Shown piece by piece: positions 1 to 38,060 of a stretch of DNA of 41,444 bases. The translations under genes were made by a program, and so were the position numbers. Position 1 is the first letter of the stretch, and the number at the start of each line of letters is the position of its first letter. Below the pieces are notes generated by a model. The model was not told the DNA's origin and searched no databases. It was given only the letters and a program-made list of their open reading frames with translations. This stretch comes from Chloroflexota bacterium (GTDB taxonomy: Bacteria > Chloroflexota > Limnocylindria > P2-11E). Location of the stretch: positions 1 through 41,444 of the forward strand of contig VBDX01000119.1 in the NCBI GenBank assembly GCA_005881885.1, in the 5' to 3' direction.

Positions 1-70
1 CGAAGGACCCGACAGTAGTTGTCATCAGGGGCGTGGGTTTCAGGGGGGTTCTGCCGCCTTCGACTGTCAT
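1..70 (-). CDS. MetE C-terminal-half protein (partial, runs off window)
   Basis: The first 23 codons of a gene on the minus strand are present; the rest lies outside the window. The ATG at 70 overlaps the TGA of the upstream MetE-like gene in an ATGA arrangement, so the two are translationally coupled. After about 15 residues the protein reads M-T-T-T-V-G-S-F, the usual opening of the catalytic, zinc-binding C-terminal barrel of cobalamin-independent methionine synthase (core MetE). I infer that this is the catalytic half of a split methionine synthase, transferring a methyl group to homocysteine. The zinc ligands fall outside the window, so the assignment rests on the opening motif, the overlap and the operon context. 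Confidence 0.6.
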   Translation of the reverse strand, partial: MTVEGGRTPLKPTPLMTTTVGSF

Positions 71-1047
71 GCGGGCACCTTCTCTCCGGAGACAAGCCGC
101 GCGCCCTCGACGAGAGCGGTGAGCTTCGCGCGCGCGACGTCGCGGGGCAGATACTCGAGCGATGTCGTGGGGGCCAGCCTCAGATGGTCCTCAGGCACGA
201 GCTTGAGGGCTCGTTCGGCGTAGCCCGCGACCTCCTCGGCCGTCTCGAGTCGAGTATTGCGAGCGTCCACGACCCCGAGGAGCACGTACTTGTTGCGGAA
301 CGCGTCGAGCCGCTCGAAGGCCGTCGTGTCGCGGCTCCGCACGTCGATCGCGATCGCCGCCACGGGGAACGAGGCCAGAGACTCGAGGACCGCGTCCGGC
401 GGGAAGAAGTACGTCACGAGAGCGAGCGCGTGGGCTGCATCGGCGAGCCGACTGTAGGCCTCGCGCGCGAGCTCGATGTGACGCGGGGATGCCACCACTG
501 CCGGGTCCTCGATGTCGACCATGCGCGCGCCTGCGTCGCTTAGCCCACGGATCTCACGCGCGGTCGCATCGGCGATCGCGAGGACGCGGTCCTCCAGCGA
601 GCTGAAGTGATCGTCCCGTGAGGCCAGCGTCGCGAACGTCAGCGGACCGGGCACCGCCGCCTTGAGCTGGGCCTTGGCCACGCCGCGCGCGAACGTGTAG
701 TCGCGGACCAGCGATTTTCCGTCGGTGACGATCGGTCCGGTGATCACGGGCTGCCGGTAGTAGGTGTTGTTGTCGTAGAAGCGCTCGAGCGGTCCGGCCT
801 CGACGCCGGACCACGTCCGTGCGAACGGAGCGAGCAGATCGTCCCAGCGGATCTGCCCATCGTTGACCACGTCCACACCGGCGGCTTCGATCTCGCCGAT
901 CGTCGAGCGGGTGACCTCGTCGTACACCTTGTCGAGCTCGGCGTCGCTGATCTCGCCCCGGTCGTGCCGATGGAGCGCTCGGCGCAGCTCCTGCGCTGGC
1001 AGCGCGTCTCCGATCTTGGGATACGCGCCGATGACCGTCGTTTTCAT
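67..1047 (-). CDS. MetE-family protein resembling the N-terminal (folate-binding) barrel
   Basis: A 326-residue protein of the cobalamin-independent methionine synthase superfamily. It opens with K-T-T-V-I-G-A-Y-P. It lacks the zinc ligands of catalytic MetE: where the catalytic half has H-x-C, this reads V-T-Y-F, and where the last Cys should be it reads A-P-T-T-S-L-E-Y-L-P. Those segments instead match the N-terminal barrel of full-length MetE (TTYF; GV-DARN; a serine-rich S-L-x-x-x-P stretch), which helps bind polyglutamylated methyltetrahydrofolate. With the downstream gene it probably forms a two-gene version of MetE. Its ATG overlaps the metF stop by ATGA, so it belongs to the SAM-riboswitch operon. 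A non-methionine-synthase role for a lone MetE-like barrel cannot be excluded. Confidence 0.75.
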   Translation of the reverse strand: MKTTVIGAYPKIGDALPAQELRRALHRHDRGEISDAELDKVYDEVTRSTIGEIEAAGVDVVNDGQIRWDDLLAPFARTWSGVEAGPLERFYDNNTYYRQPVITGPIVTDGKSLVRDYTFARGVAKAQLKAAVPGPLTFATLASRDDHFSSLEDRVLAIADATAREIRGLSDAGARMVDIEDPAVVASPRHIELAREAYSRLADAAHALALVTYFFPPDAVLESLASFPVAAIAIDVRSRDTTAFERLDAFRNKYVLLGVVDARNTRLETAEEVAGYAERALKLVPEDHLRLAPTTSLEYLPRDVARAKLTALVEGARLVSGEKVPA

Positions 1048-2009: not shown

Positions 2010-2139
2010 CCTCTCATCTTTCCCCCTGGGCCTTGCCCCATCAGGAATTCGCCCCTGGGTCGGAATTGGCACCGTCGCGGGTCTCCGCCGGTTGCCGAGG
2101 CGTCATCGGGCCGTTCCCTCAGCCTCTCTGGATGAAAGG
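2010..2139 (-). promoter_or_regulatory. SAM-I (S-box) riboswitch aptamer
   Basis: The leader of metF carries the S-box signature in order: CAGAGAGG, GAGGGAACGGCCCGATGA (kink-turn and ligand core), CCTCGGCAACC, GGTGCCAATTCC and GAAAGATGAGAGG. The closing P1 helix pairs CCTTTCATC (2139-2131) with GATGAGAGG (2018-2010), nine pairs with one G-U. This class binds S-adenosylmethionine and turns expression off. The gap between the aptamer and the divergent gene at 2194 is 54 nt; it contains minus-10-like hexamers on both strands (TAGCAT at 2168-2163 minus, TACACT at 2174-2179 plus) without clear minus-35 boxes. Confidence 0.95.
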
Positions 2140-2193: not shown

Positions 2194-2820
2194 ATGCCCG
2201 ATCGGCTCATCGAACGGACGCTGCGTACCTTCAGCGACGAACTCTCCGCCGACACGCCAGTACCGGGCGGCGGGAGCGCGGCGGCCTATGCCGGTGCGAT
2301 GGGCGCCGCGCTCGCTGCGATGGTCGCCAGGATCGCCGCCAAGAAAGAGAGCTCCGAGCCAATGCGCGCCTTCGCGGAAGAGATGGACGGCTTACGCGCG
2401 GATTTCCTCCGATTCGTGGACGAAGACAGCGCAGCGTACGGCCGAGTGGCCGCGGCGATGAAGCTCCCGCGCAAGACCGAAGAGGAGAAGGCGGCGCGTC
2501 AGGAAGTCATGCAGGGCGCGTTGCTCGGCGCGTCACGCGTGCCGCTCGAGGTCGCGAGGAGCGCCCGGCGTTTGCTCGATGCCTGTGAACGCGCCGCTCT
2601 GGGCGCGAGCCCGATGACCGCAAGCGACGTCGGCGTCGGTGCCCTCATGGCGGAAGCCGCCCTGCGCGGCGCCGCCCTCAACGTGATGATCAACCTCGCG
2701 TCCCTCAAAGATCCCGCGCAGGTGAAGGCGCTATCGGAGGATCTGGACCGCGTTCTCGAGGGCGCCGAGGAGCAGCGGCACCGGATCACGGATTTCGTCG
2801 AGTCACGGATCGCGCGCTAG
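2194..2820 (+). CDS. Cyclodeaminase/cyclohydrolase family protein (FTCD_C), probable methenyl-THF cyclohydrolase
   Basis: A 208-residue protein of the formimidoyl-tetrahydrofolate cyclodeaminase / FchA family. The signature near the N terminus is T-P-V-P-G-G-G-S-A-A-A-Y-A-G-A-M-G-A-A-L, the glycine-rich turn and first helix of this all-helical fold. Family members either cyclise formimino-THF or, as FchA in methylotrophs, interconvert methenyl-THF and formyl-THF. It overlaps the next gene, folD, by one base. That FolD has lost the residues needed for cyclohydrolase activity, so I infer that this protein supplies the cyclohydrolase step. No ribosome site stands out in front of the ATG. It is divergent from the SAM-controlled metF operon, joining two halves of one-carbon metabolism. 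Confidence 0.85.
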   Translation: MPDRLIERTLRTFSDELSADTPVPGGGSAAAYAGAMGAALAAMVARIAAKKESSEPMRAFAEEMDGLRADFLRFVDEDSAAYGRVAAAMKLPRKTEEEKAARQEVMQGALLGASRVPLEVARSARRLLDACERAALGASPMTASDVGVGALMAEAALRGAALNVMINLASLKDPAQVKALSEDLDRVLEGAEEQRHRITDFVESRIAR

Positions 2821-3665
2821 TGCGGCTCCTCCACGGCAAGCCGCTCGCCGAGCAGCTGTACGCGCGGTCGCGGGAGCGGAGCGACGCGCTCCATGCACGG
2901 GGCATCGCGCCACGACTTGCCGCCGTTTCCGTGGGCGCCGACCCCGCGGCGAACACCTACGTGCAGCGTCTCGCCGCTCGCGGGAACCGTCTTGGAATCG
3001 CGGTCGATGAGATCTCGCTGAGCCGCGACGCGACCGAGCGCGACCTCACCGAGAGGCTTGAGCGCCTCGGGGGCGAGCCGGGCATCCACGGCGTGCTGCT
3101 GCTGACGCCCCTCCCGGGCGCGCTCGACGAGGGTCACATCGTCGATCACATCTCGGCGCAGAAGGACGTCGAAGGGATGAATCCGTTCAACGTCGGTCTC
3201 CTCGCCGATGGACGGCCGCGGTTCGTGCCCTCGACCGCCGAAGCCGTGGTCGAGCTTCTGAAGTTCCACGGCGTGGTGCTCCGCGGTGCGCGCGCGGTGG
3301 TGATCGGGCGGAGCACGGTGATCGGCCGGCCGGCGGCTTACCTATTGCTGAAGGAAGACGCGACGGTCACGATCGCGCACTCGAACACCCGGGATCTCCA
3401 GACGATCAGCAAAGGCGCCGAGGTCGTCGTGGTCGGCGTCGGCAGGGCAGGCTTCCTTCGCGGCGACATGATCGCCCCGGGAGCGACGGTCATCGATGCG
3501 GGCATCAACGTGACGCCGCGAGGCATCGTCGGCGATGTAGACGCCGAGAGCGTGTCGGCGGTCGCGGAGGCGCTCAGCCCCGTGCCCGGCGGGCTCGGAA
3601 GCGTGACGACCGAGCTGCTGCTACGAAACGTCCTCACGGCGGCCGAGCGCCAGCAGCCTGATTAG
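2820..3665 (+). CDS. folD: FolD-family methylene-THF dehydrogenase, likely without cyclohydrolase activity
   Basis: A 281-residue FolD homologue with the NADP-binding half intact (V-V-I-G-R-S-T-V-I-G-R-P at about 161-172; P-V-P-G-G-L-G-S near the C terminus). FolD normally oxidises methylene-THF to methenyl-THF and hydrolyses it to formyl-THF at one site. Here three active-site positions differ from E. coli FolD: the Lys four residues after the conserved Tyr is Leu51, the Gln of the L-V-Q-L-P-L-P motif is Leu95, and the Asp of K-D-V-D-G is Glu118. Tyr47 is kept. The Lys is the residue most tied to the cyclohydrolase step. The GTG start overlaps the stop of the cyclohydrolase-family gene by one base. 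I infer a dehydrogenase-only enzyme, though a divergent bifunctional form is possible. Confidence 0.9.
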   Translation: MRLLHGKPLAEQLYARSRERSDALHARGIAPRLAAVSVGADPAANTYVQRLAARGNRLGIAVDEISLSRDATERDLTERLERLGGEPGIHGVLLLTPLPGALDEGHIVDHISAQKDVEGMNPFNVGLLADGRPRFVPSTAEAVVELLKFHGVVLRGARAVVIGRSTVIGRPAAYLLLKEDATVTIAHSNTRDLQTISKGAEVVVVGVGRAGFLRGDMIAPGATVIDAGINVTPRGIVGDVDAESVSAVAEALSPVPGGLGSVTTELLLRNVLTAAERQQPD

Positions 3666-5024
3666 CTACACCTCGACGTTCGCGCTGCCGGGCTTGCTCG
3701 CCGCGTACGCCTGTGTCGCGTAGCGCTCCGCGGCGCGCAGATCCCCGCGCTTCTTCGCGGAACGCGAGAGCCGCATGAGCACATCGCCGAGCTCCGCTTT
3801 CGCGTCAAGCGCGCGGTACGTGGCCGCGACCTCGCGCATCCGGCGCTCCGCACGCACCGGCTGCCCGTCGCGCAGGTCGAGCTCCGCGAGGACCAGCGTC
3901 GCGGTCGCCACTGCGCGATCGGCATCGGCGCCGCGTTCGTCGGTCGCCCCGATCGCCGCTTCCGCGCTCGAGCGCGCGAGGGCGGCGTCCTTCGCCTTCA
4001 GCGCGACCTCCGCGCGAGTCGCGTAGCAGTGCGCGAGATAGGCGGCCGGGCCAGACACCTTGGCGATCTCGATCGCGCGCGCGACATGCTCGTACGCGGC
4101 CAGGGTTCGGCCGGCGTCCGCCGCGAGCACGGCGAGGGCGTTCCGCATGATGAGCACCCCCACGAGGTCTTTGGCGAGCTCGGCGGACGCGAGAGCCTTC
4201 TGGTAATGCCCGGCCGCCGCGTCCTGATCGCCGAGCGCGCGGTACGCGTTGCCAAGCCCCTGATGAATGAAGGCGATGCGTCCAAGGTCGCCGATCTCGT
4301 TGGACCACTCGAGCGCGCGCTGGTAGTAGGAGGTCGCCGCCTGCGGCTCTCCGAGATCCTGCGCGCAGCCGCCAAGGGTGATGAGAATCCGCAGGCGAAG
4401 CAGCTGGTCGGGCGGGCGGGCTGACTCGATGCGCCGCAGCAGATCCTCGAGCATCTGGCGCGCGGCCCGCGGATCCCCGGCGATCCGCGTGGCGATCGCG
4501 AGCTGGTAGTCGGCGGCGCGCGCGAGAGGTTCGTCGCGCAGCTCGCCGGCGAGGCGCTGCGCCACGGCGAGCATCCCCGTGGCGTCGTTCCCGCGATGCA
4601 GTAGGTTCAGCGCCGAGCCAGCGTAGAGGCGCAGCCGGGAGCTCTCGCGGACGGTCAGATCGCCCGCGTCGAGCAGGCGTTCGGCGCGACGGAGCGCTTC
4701 AGGCGCTCCCGCGAACGTCAGCAGGCCGGCGATGGACCCGACCTCGAGCTCGTGCTCCTTGCGCGCGCGCTCCGCGTCGGCATCGTCGAGGAAGTACGAC
4801 GCCGGCTTGTCGAGCTTGCGGGCCATGTGCTCGAGCGAGCGCATCGCCGGCCGGATCTTGCCGAGCTCGATCGCACTCACGTGCGCGCGCGTGAAATACG
4901 GGGCGCCGAGCTGCGCCTGCGAGATGCCAGCGGCGAGGCGCGCCTCGCGAAGCCGGTCGCCGAGCTTCTTGAGCGCGGCAGACATCGGCGCCGGACGGCG
5001 CCGTCGCATCCGGACCTGGGGCAC
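3666..5024 (-). CDS. XRE-family transcriptional regulator with C-terminal TPR repeats
   Basis: A 452-residue protein with an N-terminal helix-turn-helix of the XRE/Cro type (roughly residues 22-78, with G-I-S-Q-A-Q-L-G and S-A-I-E-L-G-K-I-R-P) followed by about 350 residues of alpha-helical tetratricopeptide-like repeats (for example the L-G-N-A-Y-R-A-L-G-D type units). Such regulators often sense a peptide or partner protein through the TPR superhelix. A start at an internal ATG (4985) is possible, but the GTG at 5024 lies 6 nt after a good minus-10, fitting a leaderless transcript, and gives a basic R-R-R-R N-terminal tail. Its stop directly abuts the folD stop. A paralogue is at 15889-17196. 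Its targets are unknown. Confidence 0.88.
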   Translation of the reverse strand: MPQVRMRRRRPAPMSAALKKLGDRLREARLAAGISQAQLGAPYFTRAHVSAIELGKIRPAMRSLEHMARKLDKPASYFLDDADAERARKEHELEVGSIAGLLTFAGAPEALRRAERLLDAGDLTVRESSRLRLYAGSALNLLHRGNDATGMLAVAQRLAGELRDEPLARAADYQLAIATRIAGDPRAARQMLEDLLRRIESARPPDQLLRLRILITLGGCAQDLGEPQAATSYYQRALEWSNEIGDLGRIAFIHQGLGNAYRALGDQDAAAGHYQKALASAELAKDLVGVLIMRNALAVLAADAGRTLAAYEHVARAIEIAKVSGPAAYLAHCYATRAEVALKAKDAALARSSAEAAIGATDERGADADRAVATATLVLAELDLRDGQPVRAERRMREVAATYRALDAKAELGDVLMRLSRSAKKRGDLRAAERYATQAYAASKPGSANVEV

Positions 5025-11858: not shown

Positions 11859-13427
11859 CTAGTGCTTGAAGTGCCGCCGCCCGGTGAACAGCATCGCCAT
11901 GCGGTTCTTGTTCGCGGTGTCGATCATCATCGCGTCGCGGAGCGAGCCGCCCGGCTGGATGATCGCGGTCACGCCGGCGCGGGCCGCGACCTCGATCCCG
12001 TCGGGAAACGGGAAGTACGCGTCGGAGGCCATCACCGCGAGGCGCCCGTTCTCGCCTGCCTTGCGGACCGCGGTCTCGACCGCGACGACACGCGACATCT
12101 GTCCCGGGCCGACGCCGACCGTCGCGAGGCCCTTCGCCAGCACGATCGCGTTCGACGTCACGTGCTTCACGCAGCGCCACGCGAAAAGAAGGTCGGTCAG
12201 TTCCTCGAGCGTCGGATTGCGTTCGGTGACGACCTTGAAGGTCCCCTCGTCGACGGCGGACTCATCCGGTGTCTGGACGAGCATCCCACCGGCGACGCGC
12301 TTGTAGTCGAACGCGCTGGGGTCTTTGCGGACCCCTCGTGCTTCGCCCCACATGAGGCGTCCGCCGACGATCGCGTGCCCCGGCACGGAAAGGATCTCGA
12401 GATTCTTGCGCTGCCGGAGGATGGGAAGGGCCTCGTCTTCGTAGCCGGGCGCGATGATCGCCTCGTAGAAGGTGCCCTCCATGGCCTCGGCGAGCTCGCG
12501 GGCGACGATGCGATTCGCGCCGACGATGCCCCCGAACGCCGACACCGAGTCGCACATGAACGCGCGGCGGTACGCCTTGGTGATCTCGTTGTCGGACGCG
12601 ACGCCGCAGGGATTCTGGTGCTTGATGATCGCGACCGTCGGCTGCGCGAAGTCGGTGGCCACCCGCCACGCCGCGTTGACGTCGAGCATGTTGTTGAAAC
12701 TGGTGGCCTTTCCGTGCAGCTGGTGCATCGTCGTCATCGCGCCATCCTCGCCGCGGACCGCGTAGAACGCGGCTTGTTGGTGCGGGTTCTCTCCATACCG
12801 GAGGTCGCGAATCTTCCGCAGGGAGAGGGTCATCTCATCCGGGAACTGCACGCCGGCCTCGCTGGCGAAGCGTGACGCGATGGCCGCGTCGTACGCCGCC
12901 GTGTGCGAGAACGCCTCCGCCGCCAGGACGCGGCGCGTCTCGAGCGAGACCTCGCCGCGCTGCTTGAGCTCGTCGAGGACGGCCGCGTAGCGTTCCGGCC
13001 GCGCGACGACGACCACGTGCTCGTAGTTCTTGGCCGCGGCGCGGAGCAGGGTCGCGCCGCCGATGTCGATCTGCTCGAGCAGCAGCGTTCCGCTCCTGCC
13101 AGCTGCCGCGTGCTCCGCGAACGGGTAGAGGTTCACGGCGACGAGATCGATCGGCACGATGCCCTCGCGTTGTAGCTCCTCGCGGTGCGTGGGGTCATCG
13201 CGGCGCGCGAGCAGCGCCGCGTGGATCTTCGGATGGAGCGTCTTCACGCGGCCCCCCAGGAGCGACGGAGAACCGGTCACGTCCTCAACCGAGCGTGAGG
13301 TGATGCCCTCGGCGGCGAGCGCGGCGCGTGTGCCGTCGGTGGCAACGAGTTCCCAACCGAGGTCGTTCAAACCGCGCGCGAACGCGTCGAGACCTGTGCG
13401 ATCAGAGACGGAGAGGAGGGCTCGCAG
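11859..13427 (-). CDS. purH: Bifunctional AICAR formyltransferase / IMP cyclohydrolase
   Basis: PurH carries out the last two steps of IMP synthesis, taking the formyl group from formyl-THF made by the folD/fchA pair. The N-terminal cyclohydrolase part opens with R-A-L-L-S-V-S-D-R-T-G and contains L-H-P-K-I-H-A-A-L-L; the formyltransferase part has L-R-Y-G-E-N-P-H-Q-Q-A, the K-H-x-N-P-C-G motif with its catalytic His, and ends F-T-G-R-R-H-F-K-H as usual. The length of 522 aa is normal. The start is hard to place: the conserved N terminus begins at a CTG at 13427, 7 nt after a TATACT box; GTG or TTG codons further upstream lie inside the divergent gene. A non-AUG, possibly leaderless start is likely. 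Confidence 0.93.
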   Translation of the reverse strand: MRALLSVSDRTGLDAFARGLNDLGWELVATDGTRAALAAEGITSRSVEDVTGSPSLLGGRVKTLHPKIHAALLARRDDPTHREELQREGIVPIDLVAVNLYPFAEHAAAGRSGTLLLEQIDIGGATLLRAAAKNYEHVVVVARPERYAAVLDELKQRGEVSLETRRVLAAEAFSHTAAYDAAIASRFASEAGVQFPDEMTLSLRKIRDLRYGENPHQQAAFYAVRGEDGAMTTMHQLHGKATSFNNMLDVNAAWRVATDFAQPTVAIIKHQNPCGVASDNEITKAYRRAFMCDSVSAFGGIVGANRIVARELAEAMEGTFYEAIIAPGYEDEALPILRQRKNLEILSVPGHAIVGGRLMWGEARGVRKDPSAFDYKRVAGGMLVQTPDESAVDEGTFKVVTERNPTLEELTDLLFAWRCVKHVTSNAIVLAKGLATVGVGPGQMSRVVAVETAVRKAGENGRLAVMASDAYFPFPDGIEVAARAGVTAIIQPGGSLRDAMMIDTANKNRMAMLFTGRRHFKH

Positions 13428-13430
13428 CGC

Positions 13431-15888: not shown

Positions 15889-17196
15889 CTAGGTCTTCGG
15901 CGCTCCCTGGCGAGCGAGCTCGAGCAGGTCGAATGCCTCGTCGACCTTGCCGCGCACGCGCAGCTTCCGTGCGTACTCGGCCGCGAACGCGGACAGATCG
16001 GGGCTGTCGCCGGAGGCGGTCAGAAGCTCGATCGACTTCCGGTAGCCCTGGTCCGAGGCCTCGTAATCGCCGATGGCGTCGTTGGCGGATCCGATGACGC
16101 GCAGCGCGTCGGCGCGCTGCACGGCGTCGCCGACATCCTCGAGAATCCGCTCGGCGCCCTGCGCGAGCCGCAACGCCCCCGCCGCGTCGTTCGCGGCGAG
16201 CGCGATGCGTGCGAGCACCACCTCGGCGACGGCGGACATGCGCTTGTCGCCGACCGCTCTCGCTCGGGCCGCGCAGCGTTGCGCGAGGTCCGCGGACTGT
16301 TGCATGTCGCCGTGCTCCAGGTGCACCGACGCCAGCGAATGCAGCACCGAGAGCTCGAAGCCCGTATCGCTGACGCGTTCGAACAGGTCGAGCGCGCGCT
16401 GGTAGTTGGCGATCGCGCCATCGAGCTCGCCGGAGTCGTAAAGCGAGACCGCGATGCCCATGTAGCCCTGCGCGGCAAGCCGGAGCTCGTCGACGCTCGA
16501 CGCGAGTGAAAGCGCGCTGGCGTAGGTCTGCGCGGCCTTCGTGGTGCGGCGCAACCGGCGGTATGCGGTACCCAGCGAGACGAGGATGCGCGCGCGGAGC
16601 CGCGGGTCGGTGAGCTCGTACTTTTCGACGACGTCGCGGGCCGCCTCTAGCGCTTCGCCCGCCGCGACGTAATGACCCTGCTGCCCGTACGCGAGGCCAC
16701 GCAAGTAGAGAAGGTGAGCGACCTCGATCGGTTCGGCGGCGGCGGTGACCATCCCAAGGCCGCGCGCGATGTGCTCGAACGCGGCTTCGCGGTCGCCCGA
16801 GGTGATCTCGGCCTGTGCGAGGAAGCGCAGCAGCTTCGCGTGCTCGCGCGGCTGGGGTCGCTCGCCGAGCCCGCGCGCGACCTCGGCCCGCACGGTGTCC
16901 CAATCATGCCGCTCGACGGCGGCCTCGGCCGCGAGGCGGTGGAACGTCAGTCGCTTCATCGCGGCGAGGGGCTCGTCGCCGAGGAAGTAATCGAGGCTCC
17001 GGCCCAGGCGGTTCGCCATGATCTGAAGCGAACGCACAGACGGTCTGACCAGGCCGGCTTCCACCTGACTGATGAAGCCCTTGGTCAACTCTCCGCCAGC
17101 CAGCTGCGCTTGGCTCATTCCGAGCTCTCTGCGCGCAGCTCGTACACGTTCCCCGAGCGTGCTCGGACCCTGGACAGTCTCAGGAAGGCTGGCCAC
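15889..17196 (-). CDS. XRE-family transcriptional regulator with C-terminal TPR repeats
   Basis: A 435-residue paralogue of the protein at 3666-5024. The helix-turn-helix covers about residues 15-70 (L-G-M-S-Q-A-Q-L-A-G-G, Q-V-E-A-G-L-V-R-P-S) and is followed by repeats of tetratricopeptide type (for example L-V-S-L-G-T-A-Y-R-R-L-R-R and G-I-A-V-S-L-Y-D-S-G-E-L-D-G-A-I). It starts at GTG 17196 with a good ribosome site (AGGGGGAG) just upstream, unlike its paralogue. Its targets are unknown; the divergent secreted-peptide gene across a 111-nt gap is a natural candidate, since regulator plus secreted peptide is a common arrangement for this family. Confidence 0.87.
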   Translation of the reverse strand: MASLPETVQGPSTLGERVRAARRELGMSQAQLAGGELTKGFISQVEAGLVRPSVRSLQIMANRLGRSLDYFLGDEPLAAMKRLTFHRLAAEAAVERHDWDTVRAEVARGLGERPQPREHAKLLRFLAQAEITSGDREAAFEHIARGLGMVTAAAEPIEVAHLLYLRGLAYGQQGHYVAAGEALEAARDVVEKYELTDPRLRARILVSLGTAYRRLRRTTKAAQTYASALSLASSVDELRLAAQGYMGIAVSLYDSGELDGAIANYQRALDLFERVSDTGFELSVLHSLASVHLEHGDMQQSADLAQRCAARARAVGDKRMSAVAEVVLARIALAANDAAGALRLAQGAERILEDVGDAVQRADALRVIGSANDAIGDYEASDQGYRKSIELLTASGDSPDLSAFAAEYARKLRVRGKVDEAFDLLELARQGAPKT

Positions 17197-33972: not shown

Positions 33973-36015
33973 CTAACCTCGGCTCAGGTCGGCGGTGTCC
34001 TGGAAGTGATAGGGCACGTCGATGACGATGGTGTTCGGCCGGAAGAGCAGGTTCGCTTTGAGACGGAACGCGGTCTGGCTGTGCAGGAGCCACTCCCACC
34101 AGTGGCGAGGTACGAATTCCGCAAGCACCACGGTGATGGGCCGGTCGTCGGACTTGTCGATCGCGTCGATGTAGCGCAGGAGCGGCTGCACGAGCGAACG
34201 GTATGGCGACTCGAGGACGTCCACATCGATATCCGTTCCGAGCCGTTCCCACCGCCGGCGGAACTCGTCCCCGCTCGCGCGCGAGGTCGAGATGTGGACC
34301 GCCTTCACGTTCGGCGACACCGAGCGCGCGAAGGCCAGCGCCTGCATCGCCGCCCGGTCCAGGCGTGCGATCGGCACGATGACCACCGGCGCGGCGAACA
34401 CCGGGACGCGCGGCTCGGCACCCGAGAGCACGAGCGCGTCCTGCACCGTCTGGTAATGCCGATGAATCCCGTAGAGGAGAGCGACAAGTAACGGAATGAG
34501 GAGGAGCACCATCCACGCGCCAAGCTGGAACTTGGTCACCGCGACCACCACGAGCACGGTCCCGGTGACTGCCGCGCCGAAGCTGTTGATGACCATCGAG
34601 AGCCGCCAGCCGGGATTGCGCAGGCGCCACCAGCGACGCACCAGGCCCGACTGCGACAGGGTGAACGCCAGGAACACGCCGATCGTGTAGAGCGGGACGA
34701 GCGCGTTCACGCTGCCGCCGAACGCCGCGAGGATGACGGCGGCGAGCACCGCCAGCGAGGCGATGCCGAAGTTGAACGCGAGGCGGGAGCCGACGTCGGC
34801 GAAGTGCCGCGGCATGAACCGGTCGTTCGCGAGGACCGAGGCGAGGCGCGGGAAGCCGGTGAAGCCGGTGTTCGCGGCAAGCAGCAGGATGATCGCGGTC
34901 GACACTTGCACGAAGAGGTAGAGCGGCGAGCCGGCGCCGACGACCGAGCGGGTGATCATGCTGTTCACCGTTTCGATCTCGTTCTGGTCGGGCCGGATGC
35001 CGATCGTCGTCGCGAGATAGGTGAGTCCGAGGAAGATCACCGAGAAGATCGTTCCCATGAGGACGAGCGTGAACACCGCGTTGCGCGTCTCCGGCCGGCG
35101 GAAGCTCGGGACGCCATTGGCGATCGCCTCGCTACCGGTGAGCCCCACGGAACCGGAGGCGAACGCGCGCAGCACGAGCAGGAGCGTGAGCGGTACGGTC
35201 CCGGCCGGATCGAAGGGGTCGGGCGGCACCGCCGCCGGCGGAACATCCCCGGTCGCGATGCGGAAGAGGCCGATCGAGAGGAGTCCGACCATCCCAAGCA
35301 TGTACGCGTAGGTCGGCGCGGCGAACAGCAGGCCCGCCTCACGCACGCCGCGCAGGTTGCCGATGACGAGGAGGGCGATGAGCGCGAGGCCGATCGGCAC
35401 CCGATACGGATGGATCTCCGGCATGAAGCTCGAGATCGCGGCGACGCCCGCCGCGGTCGACACCGCGACGGTGAGGACGTAGTCGATGAGCAGGGCCGAC
35501 GCTGCGACGAGTCCCGCGATGACCCCGTGGTTCTCGCGAGCGACGAGATAGCTCCCGCCGCCATTCGGATACGCGCGGATGACCCGCGACTCGGAGAGCA
35601 CGACGATCGCCAGGACGAACACAACGGCGATCGCGATCGGCATCGTCAGCGCGAGCGCGCCGACCCCCGCGAGCGCGAGAACTCGCATCGCTTCCTCGGT
35701 CGCGTAGGCCGAGGACGAGATGTTGTCCGAGGCAAGGATCGGAAGGCCGGTCGCGACGCCAACGCGCTCCTCGGCCTCCGCTTCGCTGTGCAGACGCTTG
35801 CCGATGAGGACGCGCAGGCCGGCGTTCCAGGCGCGTCCAAGGCGTCCGGCTGCCACCATGGTCTGCTCGGTGGCGACATAGCGGCCGCCGTGACCGCGGA
35901 GGCCGCTGCCGATCGGCCGGACGATTCGGACGTAGCGATCGCCGACGTGACGCCCGGCCTGGGTCACGCGCTTCTCCAGGGACGGCGCCTCGGGGCGCTC
36001 CTCCTCGCCGCTCAA
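33973..36015 (-). CDS. KimA/KUP-like APC-superfamily permease
   Basis: A 680-residue permease resembling Bacillus subtilis KimA, a high-affinity potassium-proton symporter. After an 85-residue cytosolic N terminus come about 12 transmembrane helices; the unwound first helix reads S-D-N-I-S-S-S-A-Y-A-T-E-E-A and a later helix A-Y-P-N-G-G-G-S-Y, both KimA/KUP marks. The last 140 residues form a Usp-like cytosolic domain ending V-I-D-V-P-Y-H-F. Its ATG overlaps the stop of the upstream paralogue by ATGA, so the two may make a heteromer. KimA substrate assignment is by similarity; other APC substrates are possible. Confidence 0.85.
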   Translation of the reverse strand: MSGEEERPEAPSLEKRVTQAGRHVGDRYVRIVRPIGSGLRGHGGRYVATEQTMVAAGRLGRAWNAGLRVLIGKRLHSEAEAEERVGVATGLPILASDNISSSAYATEEAMRVLALAGVGALALTMPIAIAVVFVLAIVVLSESRVIRAYPNGGGSYLVARENHGVIAGLVAASALLIDYVLTVAVSTAAGVAAISSFMPEIHPYRVPIGLALIALLVIGNLRGVREAGLLFAAPTYAYMLGMVGLLSIGLFRIATGDVPPAAVPPDPFDPAGTVPLTLLLVLRAFASGSVGLTGSEAIANGVPSFRRPETRNAVFTLVLMGTIFSVIFLGLTYLATTIGIRPDQNEIETVNSMITRSVVGAGSPLYLFVQVSTAIILLLAANTGFTGFPRLASVLANDRFMPRHFADVGSRLAFNFGIASLAVLAAVILAAFGGSVNALVPLYTIGVFLAFTLSQSGLVRRWWRLRNPGWRLSMVINSFGAAVTGTVLVVVAVTKFQLGAWMVLLLIPLLVALLYGIHRHYQTVQDALVLSGAEPRVPVFAAPVVIVPIARLDRAAMQALAFARSVSPNVKAVHISTSRASGDEFRRRWERLGTDIDVDVLESPYRSLVQPLLRYIDAIDKSDDRPITVVLAEFVPRHWWEWLLHSQTAFRLKANLLFRPNTIVIDVPYHFQDTADLSRG

Positions 36016-38060
36016 TGACGCTTCCCTTGATGGTCGTGCCCGTTATCGAAGTGGTACGGGACGTCGATGACGATGGTGTTTGGGCGGAAGAGCAGGCTGG
36101 CCTTGAGCCGGAGCGCGGTCTGGCTGTGAAGCAGCCACTCCCACCAGCTGTGCGGCACGAAGGACGCGAGGACGACCGTGATCGGCCGATCGTCGCGCTC
36201 GTCGATCCGATCGATGTACTTGAGCAGCGGCGGCACGAGCGAACGGTACGGCGACTCGATGACGTCGAGCGGGACCTTGCCGGCCCAGTGCTCCCACCGC
36301 TTGCGGAACTCTCGGGAGCTCTCCTCGCTCGTCGCGACGTGAACCGCCTTGACGGCCGGCGAGATCGAGCGCGCGAACGCAATGGCCCGCGCTGTCGCAC
36401 GGTCCAGCCGCCCTACCGGAACGATCACCACCGGCGGGCGAACGGCGGGGACCTCCTCGTCGAGGCGTTCGATCACGAGCGCGTCCTGCATCTGCATGTA
36501 GTGGCGGTGGATGGCGAGGAGCACCGAGACGATCACCGGGATCACGAGCACGACGAGCCACGCTCCCTCGCCGGCCTTCGCTACGAGCACGATGACCAGC
36601 ACCAGGGCGGTCACCGCGGCGCCGAGCAGATTGAGAGCCGCCCGCCACTGCCAGCCGGGCGATCGCAGGCGGCGCCACCGCCGGACGAGCCCGGTCTGCG
36701 AAAGCGTGAAGGCCAGGAACACGCCAATCGTGTAGAAGGGGATGAGCTCGGTGACGCTGCCCTCACGCCATACCAGGACCGCCGCCGAGACCACGGCCAG
36801 AGCGACGATCCCGAAGGAGAACGCGAGTCGCTCGCCGCGGTACGCGAACTGGCGCGGCATGAAGCGGTCGTTCGCGAGCACCGACGCGAGGCGCGGGAAA
36901 CCCGTGAACCCGGTATTCGCGGCAAGCGCCAGCAGCAGCGCCGTGGACCCTTGAACGACGTAATACAAAGGCGTGTATCCGACGAGCGACCGCGTCACGA
37001 GGCTGTTGAGCGTCTCGACCTCAGAGCGATCGGGGACCGCGCCGATGGCTTGCGCGAGGAACGTCAATCCGAGGAAGATCGTGCTGAAGGTCACGCCCAT
37101 CAGGACGAGGGTGACCGTGGCATTGCGGCGCTCGTCCTTCTCCATGCTGGGCACGCCGTTGGCGATGGCCTCGCTTCCGGTGAGGCCGACCGAGCCTGAC
37201 GCGAACGCGCGGAGGATGAGGAGCACGCCGGCGAGGCCGACGAGCTGCTGCTCGCCCTCGGCCCCGAATGGGTTCGGCGCCACCGCGGCCGGCGGGACGT
37301 CTCCGGTGAGGATGCGGAAGAGGCCGTAAAGGATCAGCACCCCGAGCGCGGCGATGTACACGTAGGTGGGCCCGGCGAACATCACGCCGGCCTCGCGCAC
37401 GCCGCGGAGGTTACCGATCATGAGAATCGTGATGAAGACGAGGCCGATCTCTACGGAATACGGATGCAGGCTCGGCAGGAAGCTCGTCACCGCCTGGACA
37501 CCTGCCGCGGTCGACACGGCGACCGTGAGCACATAGTCGATGAGCAGCGCCGCCGCGGCGACGAGGCCCGGCAGCACCCCCAGGTTGTCGCTCGCGACGA
37601 CGTAGCTGCCGCCGCCGTTCGGGTACGCCTGGATCACCTGCGATTGCGAAAGGACCACGATCGCGAGCACGCCGACGATGGCGATGGCGATGGGCGTGAG
37701 AAACACGAACGCGCCGATGCCGGCGAGCGCGAGGACGCGCATGGCCTCCTCGGTCGCGTATGCCGATGACGAGATGTTGTCCGACCCCAGGATCGCGAGT
37801 CCCGTGAAGACCCCCAGGCGCTCGCTCTCCTCCGCCTCCATGCTGAGGCGGGGGCCGAACAGGAAACGGCGGACCGCCTCGTACGACCGGCCGAGAGGGC
37901 CCTCGGGGCGCAGCGCGTCCTCGCCGAGAACATAGCGATCGCCTCGACGGCGGAAGTCAGAAGTGTGGTGGATCCGAACGTAGCGGTCACCAGGAAGCCG
38001 CCCGGACGTCGTGGTGCGATCTTCGAGCGATGGGGTCTCCGGCTCCTCGTCGTCGCTCAC
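36012..38060 (-). CDS. KimA/KUP-like APC-superfamily permease (tandem paralogue)
   Basis: A 682-residue paralogue of the next gene, with the same layout: an acidic then R-rich N terminus with two G-D-R-Y-V motifs, the S-S-A-Y-A-T-E-E-A helix break, A-Y-P-N-G-G-G-S-Y, G-L-T-G-S-E-A-I-A-N-G-V-P, about 12 membrane helices and a C-terminal Usp-like domain with L-L-H-S-Q-T-A-L-R-L-K-A and V-I-D-V-P-Y-H-F. The two differ mainly in loops and the tail (this one ends G-H-D-H-Q-G-K-R-H). Its start is one base after the PrcB-like stop, leaving no room for a c-di-AMP riboswitch such as the one upstream of B. subtilis kimA. Confidence 0.85.
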   Translation of the reverse strand: MSDDEEPETPSLEDRTTTSGRLPGDRYVRIHHTSDFRRRGDRYVLGEDALRPEGPLGRSYEAVRRFLFGPRLSMEAEESERLGVFTGLAILGSDNISSSAYATEEAMRVLALAGIGAFVFLTPIAIAIVGVLAIVVLSQSQVIQAYPNGGGSYVVASDNLGVLPGLVAAAALLIDYVLTVAVSTAAGVQAVTSFLPSLHPYSVEIGLVFITILMIGNLRGVREAGVMFAGPTYVYIAALGVLILYGLFRILTGDVPPAAVAPNPFGAEGEQQLVGLAGVLLILRAFASGSVGLTGSEAIANGVPSMEKDERRNATVTLVLMGVTFSTIFLGLTFLAQAIGAVPDRSEVETLNSLVTRSLVGYTPLYYVVQGSTALLLALAANTGFTGFPRLASVLANDRFMPRQFAYRGERLAFSFGIVALAVVSAAVLVWREGSVTELIPFYTIGVFLAFTLSQTGLVRRWRRLRSPGWQWRAALNLLGAAVTALVLVIVLVAKAGEGAWLVVLVIPVIVSVLLAIHRHYMQMQDALVIERLDEEVPAVRPPVVIVPVGRLDRATARAIAFARSISPAVKAVHVATSEESSREFRKRWEHWAGKVPLDVIESPYRSLVPPLLKYIDRIDERDDRPITVVLASFVPHSWWEWLLHSQTALRLKASLLFRPNTIVIDVPYHFDNGHDHQGKRH

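Follow-up and report, generated by a model that had tools for sequence, protein, structure and literature searches.

Overlapping fchA and folD genes in a Chloroflexota genome as a probable division of bifunctional FolD

Introduction

Bifunctional FolD, known from E. coli and from the core of MTHFD1, combines methylene-THF dehydrogenase and methenyl-THF cyclohydrolase in a two-step active site. Other systems divide this labor. Yeast Mtd1 is a eukaryotic, NAD-dependent dehydrogenase of the FolD fold without cyclohydrolase, and methylotrophs such as Methylorubrum extorquens use the pair MtdA and FchA. In C. perfringens, FolD reportedly acts as a monofunctional dehydrogenase while FchA supplies the cyclohydrolase. 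The C. perfringens study of FolD, FchA, and Fhs (doi 10.1099/mic.0.000209) is cited in PMC7219735, and monofunctional cyclohydrolase and dehydrogenase proteins are described for A. woodii and C. formicoaceticum, unlike Moorella (review PMC9124964). Acetogens are thus already known to place the dehydrogenase and the cyclohydrolase on separate monofunctional proteins (PMC9124964), and the original prediction overstated how novel such a split is. A comparable protein has also been made in the laboratory, since the E. coli FolD mutant K54N has no detectable cyclohydrolase and retains ~19% of the dehydrogenase (PMC5688156).

Here we analyze a window of 41,444 nucleotides (contig VBDX01000119.1, assembly GCA_005881885.1) from a Chloroflexota bacterium, in which an fchA-like gene overlaps a folD gene that has lost the cyclohydrolase lysine. 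The pair resembles the clostridial and acetogen system in its putative dehydrogenase without cyclohydrolase and its separate cyclohydrolase, and fchA lies by folD in many clostridia as well. It differs from that system by an added Asp121 to Glu replacement, by its phylum, and by its neighborhood, which in the window comprises metF and a core metE; unlike the acetogen fhs–fchA–folD module, it stands in a draft genome with no match to Fhs. With the MtdA/FchA system of M. extorquens the pair shares the divided labor and a homologous FchA, whereas its dehydrogenase is a FolD by both domains and not an MtdA. The window FolD would share with E. coli K54N a FolD fold with dehydrogenase but without cyclohydrolase, although the latter is a laboratory-made resistance mutant.

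Results

The window FolD lacks three residues of the bifunctional enzyme

The fchA-like gene (P0002; 2194..2820, plus strand) encodes a protein of 208 aa of the FTCD_C family, a putative 5,10-methenyl-THF cyclohydrolase, and the folD gene (P0001; 2820..3665, plus strand) encodes a Lys-less protein of 281 aa, a putative monofunctional NADP-dependent methylene-THF dehydrogenase. Direct reading of the sequence places the fchA stop codon TAG at 2818–2820 and the folD start codon GTG at 2820–2822, so that the two genes overlap by one base (2818..2822, plus strand). The one-base overlap had been predicted correctly, but the description of the genes as fused had not, as they are separate open reading frames. 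Translational coupling of fchA and folD is likely, and we infer that the two proteins are co-translated.

P0001 matches PF00763 (E 5.4e-25) and PF02882 (E 9.4e-54) and no Pfam domain other than those of FolD. Its AlphaFold model, made with 26 sequences from the window genome and related genomes, has a pLDDT of 95.8, and Foldseek returns bifunctional FolDs as its best matches over the whole length (TM 0.94–0.96). By both domains and by fold, the protein is therefore a member of the FolD family. Unlike bifunctional FolD, however, it reaches a best NCBIfam bifunctional FolD score of 260.6 bits vs a cut-off of 421, and stays well under every listed cut-off.

Alignment with E. coli FolD reveals the three substitutions that had been claimed, all on the plus strand: (I) Leu51 (codon 2970..2972) replaces the cyclohydrolase Lys54 (YVQRLAARGNRLGI vs YVASKRKACEEVGF), (II) Leu95 (codon 3102..3104) replaces Gln98 (GVLLLTPLP vs GILVQLPLP), and (III) Glu118 (codon 3171..3173) replaces Asp121 (KDVEG vs KDVDG). 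The Lys54 and Gln98 pair of bifunctional FolD is thus missing. The protein keeps Tyr50 and, as also predicted, an intact NADP site, with both the GRSxxxGRP and the HSxT cofactor motifs in the form GRSTVIGRP and HSNT, a pattern common to most FolDs of the phylum that retain the lysine. NADP is accordingly the presumed cofactor. We infer dehydrogenase activity from the conservation of the rest of the protein, the confident FolD model, and its place as the sole FolD of the genome; because Lys, Gln, and Asp are lost together and E. coli FolD Q98H shows a dehydrogenase of only ~8%, with cyclohydrolase estimated at 1% (PMC5688156), this activity is put forward as putative.

The upstream protein belongs to the FchA family

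P0002 consists of an FTCD_C domain alone (PF04961, E 6.6e-57, residues 9–184 of 208 aa). It matches the FchA model NF045657 with E 3.6e-48 and 163.8 bits, under the cut-off of 275. In a phmmer search the best PDB match is 7vg4 at 112 bits, vs 76 bits for the FTCD cyclodeaminase, and Foldseek with the AlphaFold model (pLDDT 94.8) again returns 7vg4 as the best match (TM 0.91–0.93, ~38% identity). This entry is the methenyl-THF cyclohydrolase of M. extorquens, and it ranks above the formimino-THF cyclodeaminases 1tt9 and 1o5h. The assignment of the gene upstream of folD to the FchA/FTCD_C family is thereby borne out, and the protein is presumably a methenyl-THF cyclohydrolase. PF04961 is common to FchA and to the C-terminal domain of FTCD; unlike FTCD, the window FchA is not fused to a formiminotransferase domain, and in this genome FtcD lies on another contig. 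The viral contigs scanned with FchA gave no match.

The window genome keeps a single known route to 10-formyl-THF

The window genome is a 3.36 Mb draft, 92% complete, with one FolD and one PF04961 gene, namely FchA. No Fhs (PF01268) was found in this draft, and none in 16/16 sampled genomes of the window's families f1–f3, which makes an assembly gap an unlikely cause of its absence. The sister families f4 and f5 carry Fhs. PurH is encoded in the window on the minus strand (~11862–13430, ORF end 11859; TIGR00355 over cut-off), and Fmt is the sole Formyl_trans_N gene of the genome (TIGR00460 over cut-off), with PurN and PurU not found in the window genome. Both PurH and Fmt use 10-formyl-THF. 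Since these users are kept, yet there is no other FolD or FTCD_C gene and no Fhs, FolD and FchA form the only known route to 10-formyl-THF in this genome, and, as Fhs is missing, the pair has to work in the oxidative direction, starting at methylene-THF. Contig C61 carries FtcD (TIGR02024, 346 bits), which overlaps hutI (TIGR01224, 397 bits). FchA, on contig C39, is neither fused nor adjacent to FtcD.

We note several other features of the window. A SAM-I riboswitch (RF00162, 79 bits; 2011–2138, minus strand) lies ahead of the divergent metF–metE pair and is followed by a terminator-like hairpin near 1965–2000. Because the longest-ORF start of metF (2072) falls within the aptamer, translation of the gene probably begins at the TTG near 1965. 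The methionine synthase beside metF is short (67–1047, minus strand; 326 aa) and resembles a "core MetE", with under half the length of ordinary MetE; its nearest model is PRK04326, under its cut-off. Two XRE-type helix-turn-helix proteins of similar design, with apparent TPR repeats, are encoded at 3666–5024 and 15889–17196 (both minus strand), and two tandem, overlapping, mutually similar amino-acid-permease-like membrane proteins of ~680 aa at 33973–36015 and 36012–38060 (minus strand) appear to be a duplication.

Loss of the lysine goes with FchA in Chloroflexota and Clostridia

We call FolDs with and without a lysine at E. coli position 54 Lys-type and Lys-less, respectively. FolDs were fetched and aligned from 122 genomes of the phylum, taken to be Chloroflexota because sequences of this kind occur in Herpetosiphon, Chloroflexus, Thermogemmatispora, and Anaerolineae records. 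The sample, whose loci were partly picked through FchA matches, holds 74 Lys-less FolDs, with 44 Ile, 22 Leu, and 8 Val at position 54. An unfused FchA is present in the genome in 74/74 cases and at the same locus in 71, whereas FolD-linked FchA occurs with 0/48 Lys-type FolDs. Fhs is absent from 43 of the 74 Lys-less genomes.

A second sample, of 147 genomes, was drawn from the class to which [Clostridium] ultunense belongs, and 112 FolDs were read in it. All 52 Lys-less clostridial FolDs, with Ala, Ile, Leu, Val, or Gln at this position, belong to genomes with PF04961, while 58/60 Lys-type FolDs belong to genomes without it. The two exceptions are G333, which has two FolDs of which only the Lys-less one adjoins FchA, and G378, in which the single Lys-type FolD is accompanied by an FchA-family gene elsewhere in the genome. 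In G333 the Lys54 FolD stands alone and the Ile54 FolD beside FchA (C113, C108; L331, L332), a natural side-by-side control. The co-occurrence of lysine loss with an adjacent FchA, proposed beforehand as a test among homologues, is thus found both in the phylum and in Clostridia.

Elsewhere, in Omnitrophota and Desantisbacteria, FchA close to FolD goes with a Lys to Gln change together with Asp121 to Glu. When the fetched loci are taken together, 106 FTCD_C genes have a Lys-less FolD at their locus. A single one has a Lys-type FolD there, 4 kb off on the opposite strand. No Lys-less FolD without the FchA family in its genome was found among the genomes inspected; these counts leave out about ten low-scoring FolDs from genomes without a PF04961 match (e.g., G029, G230, G237, G265, and family f44), which could contain counter-examples. 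The f44 genomes (G132, G140, G148, G233, and G268) have no FTCD_C, and their FolD-like proteins are very divergent, with E values of just 1e-6 to 1e-8 for the FolD match. Sixteen further genomes of the phylum have no FolD match, some of them near complete, such as G155 and G025 (both 99%), each of which has an FTCD fusion.

The rule is one-directional: among the genomes inspected, a Lys-less FolD comes with an FTCD_C protein in the genome, and the rule also holds for adjacency. An FTCD_C protein in the genome does not imply loss of the lysine, because among 22 genomes from other phyla, chosen for their unfused FTCD_C, FolD was Lys-less in 12 and kept the lysine in 10. The FTCD_C family also provides the cyclodeaminase that acts in histidine degradation. 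We rejected genome-wide PF04961 as a two-way predictor, as many Lys-type genomes also carry FTCD_C, which is fused in FTCD, stands beside FTCD_N (f19), is a divergent copy (f22), or lies elsewhere in the genome (G181, G378).

Three observations bear on what the FolD-linked copies do. Among the 74 Lys-less genomes of the phylum, 33 have FchA and lack the formiminotransferase (PF07837, FTCD_N), so that formimino-THF does not explain their FchA; some genomes, G031 and G067 among them, encode a fused FTCD apart from the FolD-linked FchA; and in families f10, f19, and f41, FTCD_C adjoins or is fused to FTCD_N rather than FolD, and FolD keeps its lysine. Cyclohydrolase is thus the most fitting reading of the FolD-linked FTCD_C copies. 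We also tried a tree of FTCD_C proteins as a means of telling cyclohydrolase from cyclodeaminase, and it failed, the roles being intermingled.

The plain p-value of the association, 2.7e-55, ignores kinship and is not a count of independent events, because the co-occurrence clusters along the phylogeny; a sign test could draw on only two independent pairs and gave no significance. Changes of lysine state on the trees number from 2 (FastTree, 235 rows) to 6 (IQ-TREE, 145 rows), and well-supported branches force only one, which is compatible with a single origin. In the larger tree the Chloroflexota, the main clostridial group, and the clostridial Gln/Leu group stand apart with moderate support, as do the Omnitrophota/Desantisbacteria pair and a Thermoplasmata row.

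Loss of the lysine is general, its combination with changes at Gln98 and Asp121 local

Lys54, Gln98, Asp121, and Tyr50 are invariant in 108/108 Lys-type FolDs examined, and the losses of Lys, Gln, and Asp are therefore more than chance. Among all Lys-less FolDs examined, Gln98 is kept in 58/126 and Asp121 in 115/126; for those of the phylum the figures are 52/74 and 64/74. The original prediction thus holds for the lysine, whose loss is a general, FchA-linked change, but not for Gln98 and Asp121, which are mostly kept in the phylum. Replacement of Gln98 by Leu or Met together with Asp121 by Glu marks the window's order (families f1 and f2), where all 9 sampled FolDs show it, and was found nowhere outside that order in the phylum sample. 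As Gln98 is invariant in Lys-type but variable in Lys-less FolDs, the alignments fit an order in which the lysine would have been lost first and the constraint on Gln98 relaxed afterwards, with the Asp121 to Glu change, together with Gln98 to Leu or Met, as an apparently later, secondary step.

Discussion

We consider it highly probable that the two overlapping genes represent a divided FolD, with FolD as the dehydrogenase and FchA as the cyclohydrolase. In the proposed scheme, FolD (2820–3665) would oxidize 5,10-methylene-THF to 5,10-methenyl-THF with NADP+ and, because Lys54 and Gln98 are missing, would be unable to hydrolyze the product. FchA (2194–2820) would then hydrolyze methenyl-THF to 10-formyl-THF, to be consumed by PurH and Fmt. 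The upstream FchA very likely takes over the step that FolD has lost. The claim that a bifunctional enzyme was split on a FolD scaffold is in this respect supported by the co-occurrence, the genome content, and the K54N mutant data.

The division leaves room for a second function of FchA. Since FtcD and hutI are encoded in this genome and FchA, its only FTCD_C protein, is the only candidate cyclodeaminase, a double role is quite possible, in which FchA would be both the cyclohydrolase partner of FolD and the formimino-THF cyclodeaminase of histidine degradation; this extends the main reading, and we give it somewhat less than an even chance. In its favor, FTCD_C adjoins FTCD_N in some genomes outside the phylum that have a Lys-less FolD (loci L177, L181, L190), and FolD-adjacent and FTCD_N-adjacent FTCD_C proteins are mixed in the tree. 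A missed cyclodeaminase could, however, sit in the unassembled 8% of the genome, and FtcD might be there for 5-formyl-THF disposal instead. More tentatively still, FchA may serve both pathways in the window's order, and this sharing may have let FolD, in a bacterium lacking Fhs, shed Lys, Gln, and Asp and become a pure dehydrogenase.

FtcD and HutI would also suit an FchA that acts as a formimino-THF cyclodeaminase only, with methenyl-THF hydrolyzing spontaneously beside a partly degraded FolD. E. coli K54 mutants do survive without cyclohydrolase, with a growth defect, and the reaction can be spontaneous (PMC5688156). We nevertheless regard this as very improbable: the closest solved relative of FchA is a cyclohydrolase and not a cyclodeaminase, the 33 Lys-less genomes with FchA have no FTCD_N, and the state of the lysine follows the company that FTCD_C keeps, Lys-type beside or fused to FTCD_N in families f10, f19, and f41, and Lys-less beside FolD. 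It also seems scarcely credible that the window FolD retains cyclohydrolase through compensating residues, FchA being redundant or raising capacity. Because most Lys-less FolDs of the phylum keep Gln98 and Asp121, their pocket is not wholly decayed; in the window FolD, however, all three residues are replaced, the E. coli K54N mutation abolishes the cyclohydrolase (PMC5688156), and every Lys-less FolD counted has an FchA-family protein in its genome. We therefore retain the division of labor between FolD and FchA.

In sum, an arrangement known from a few clostridia proves in this analysis to be widespread and to obey a simple one-residue rule. Our search, which reached few subscription papers, found no paper tying loss of Lys54 to FchA across phyla. 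Nearly all annotations describe FolD as bifunctional. The rule suggests another reading: where E. coli position 54 holds no lysine, an FchA is to be expected, usually adjacent, and FolD is to be modeled as a dehydrogenase only. This affects metabolic models and predictions of essentiality, as two genes are needed and not one, and it bears on FolD as an inhibitor target because carolacton anchors on Lys54 (PMC5688156). The lineages in which the lysine was lost, naturally and probably repeatedly, offer material on how a two-step active site divides.
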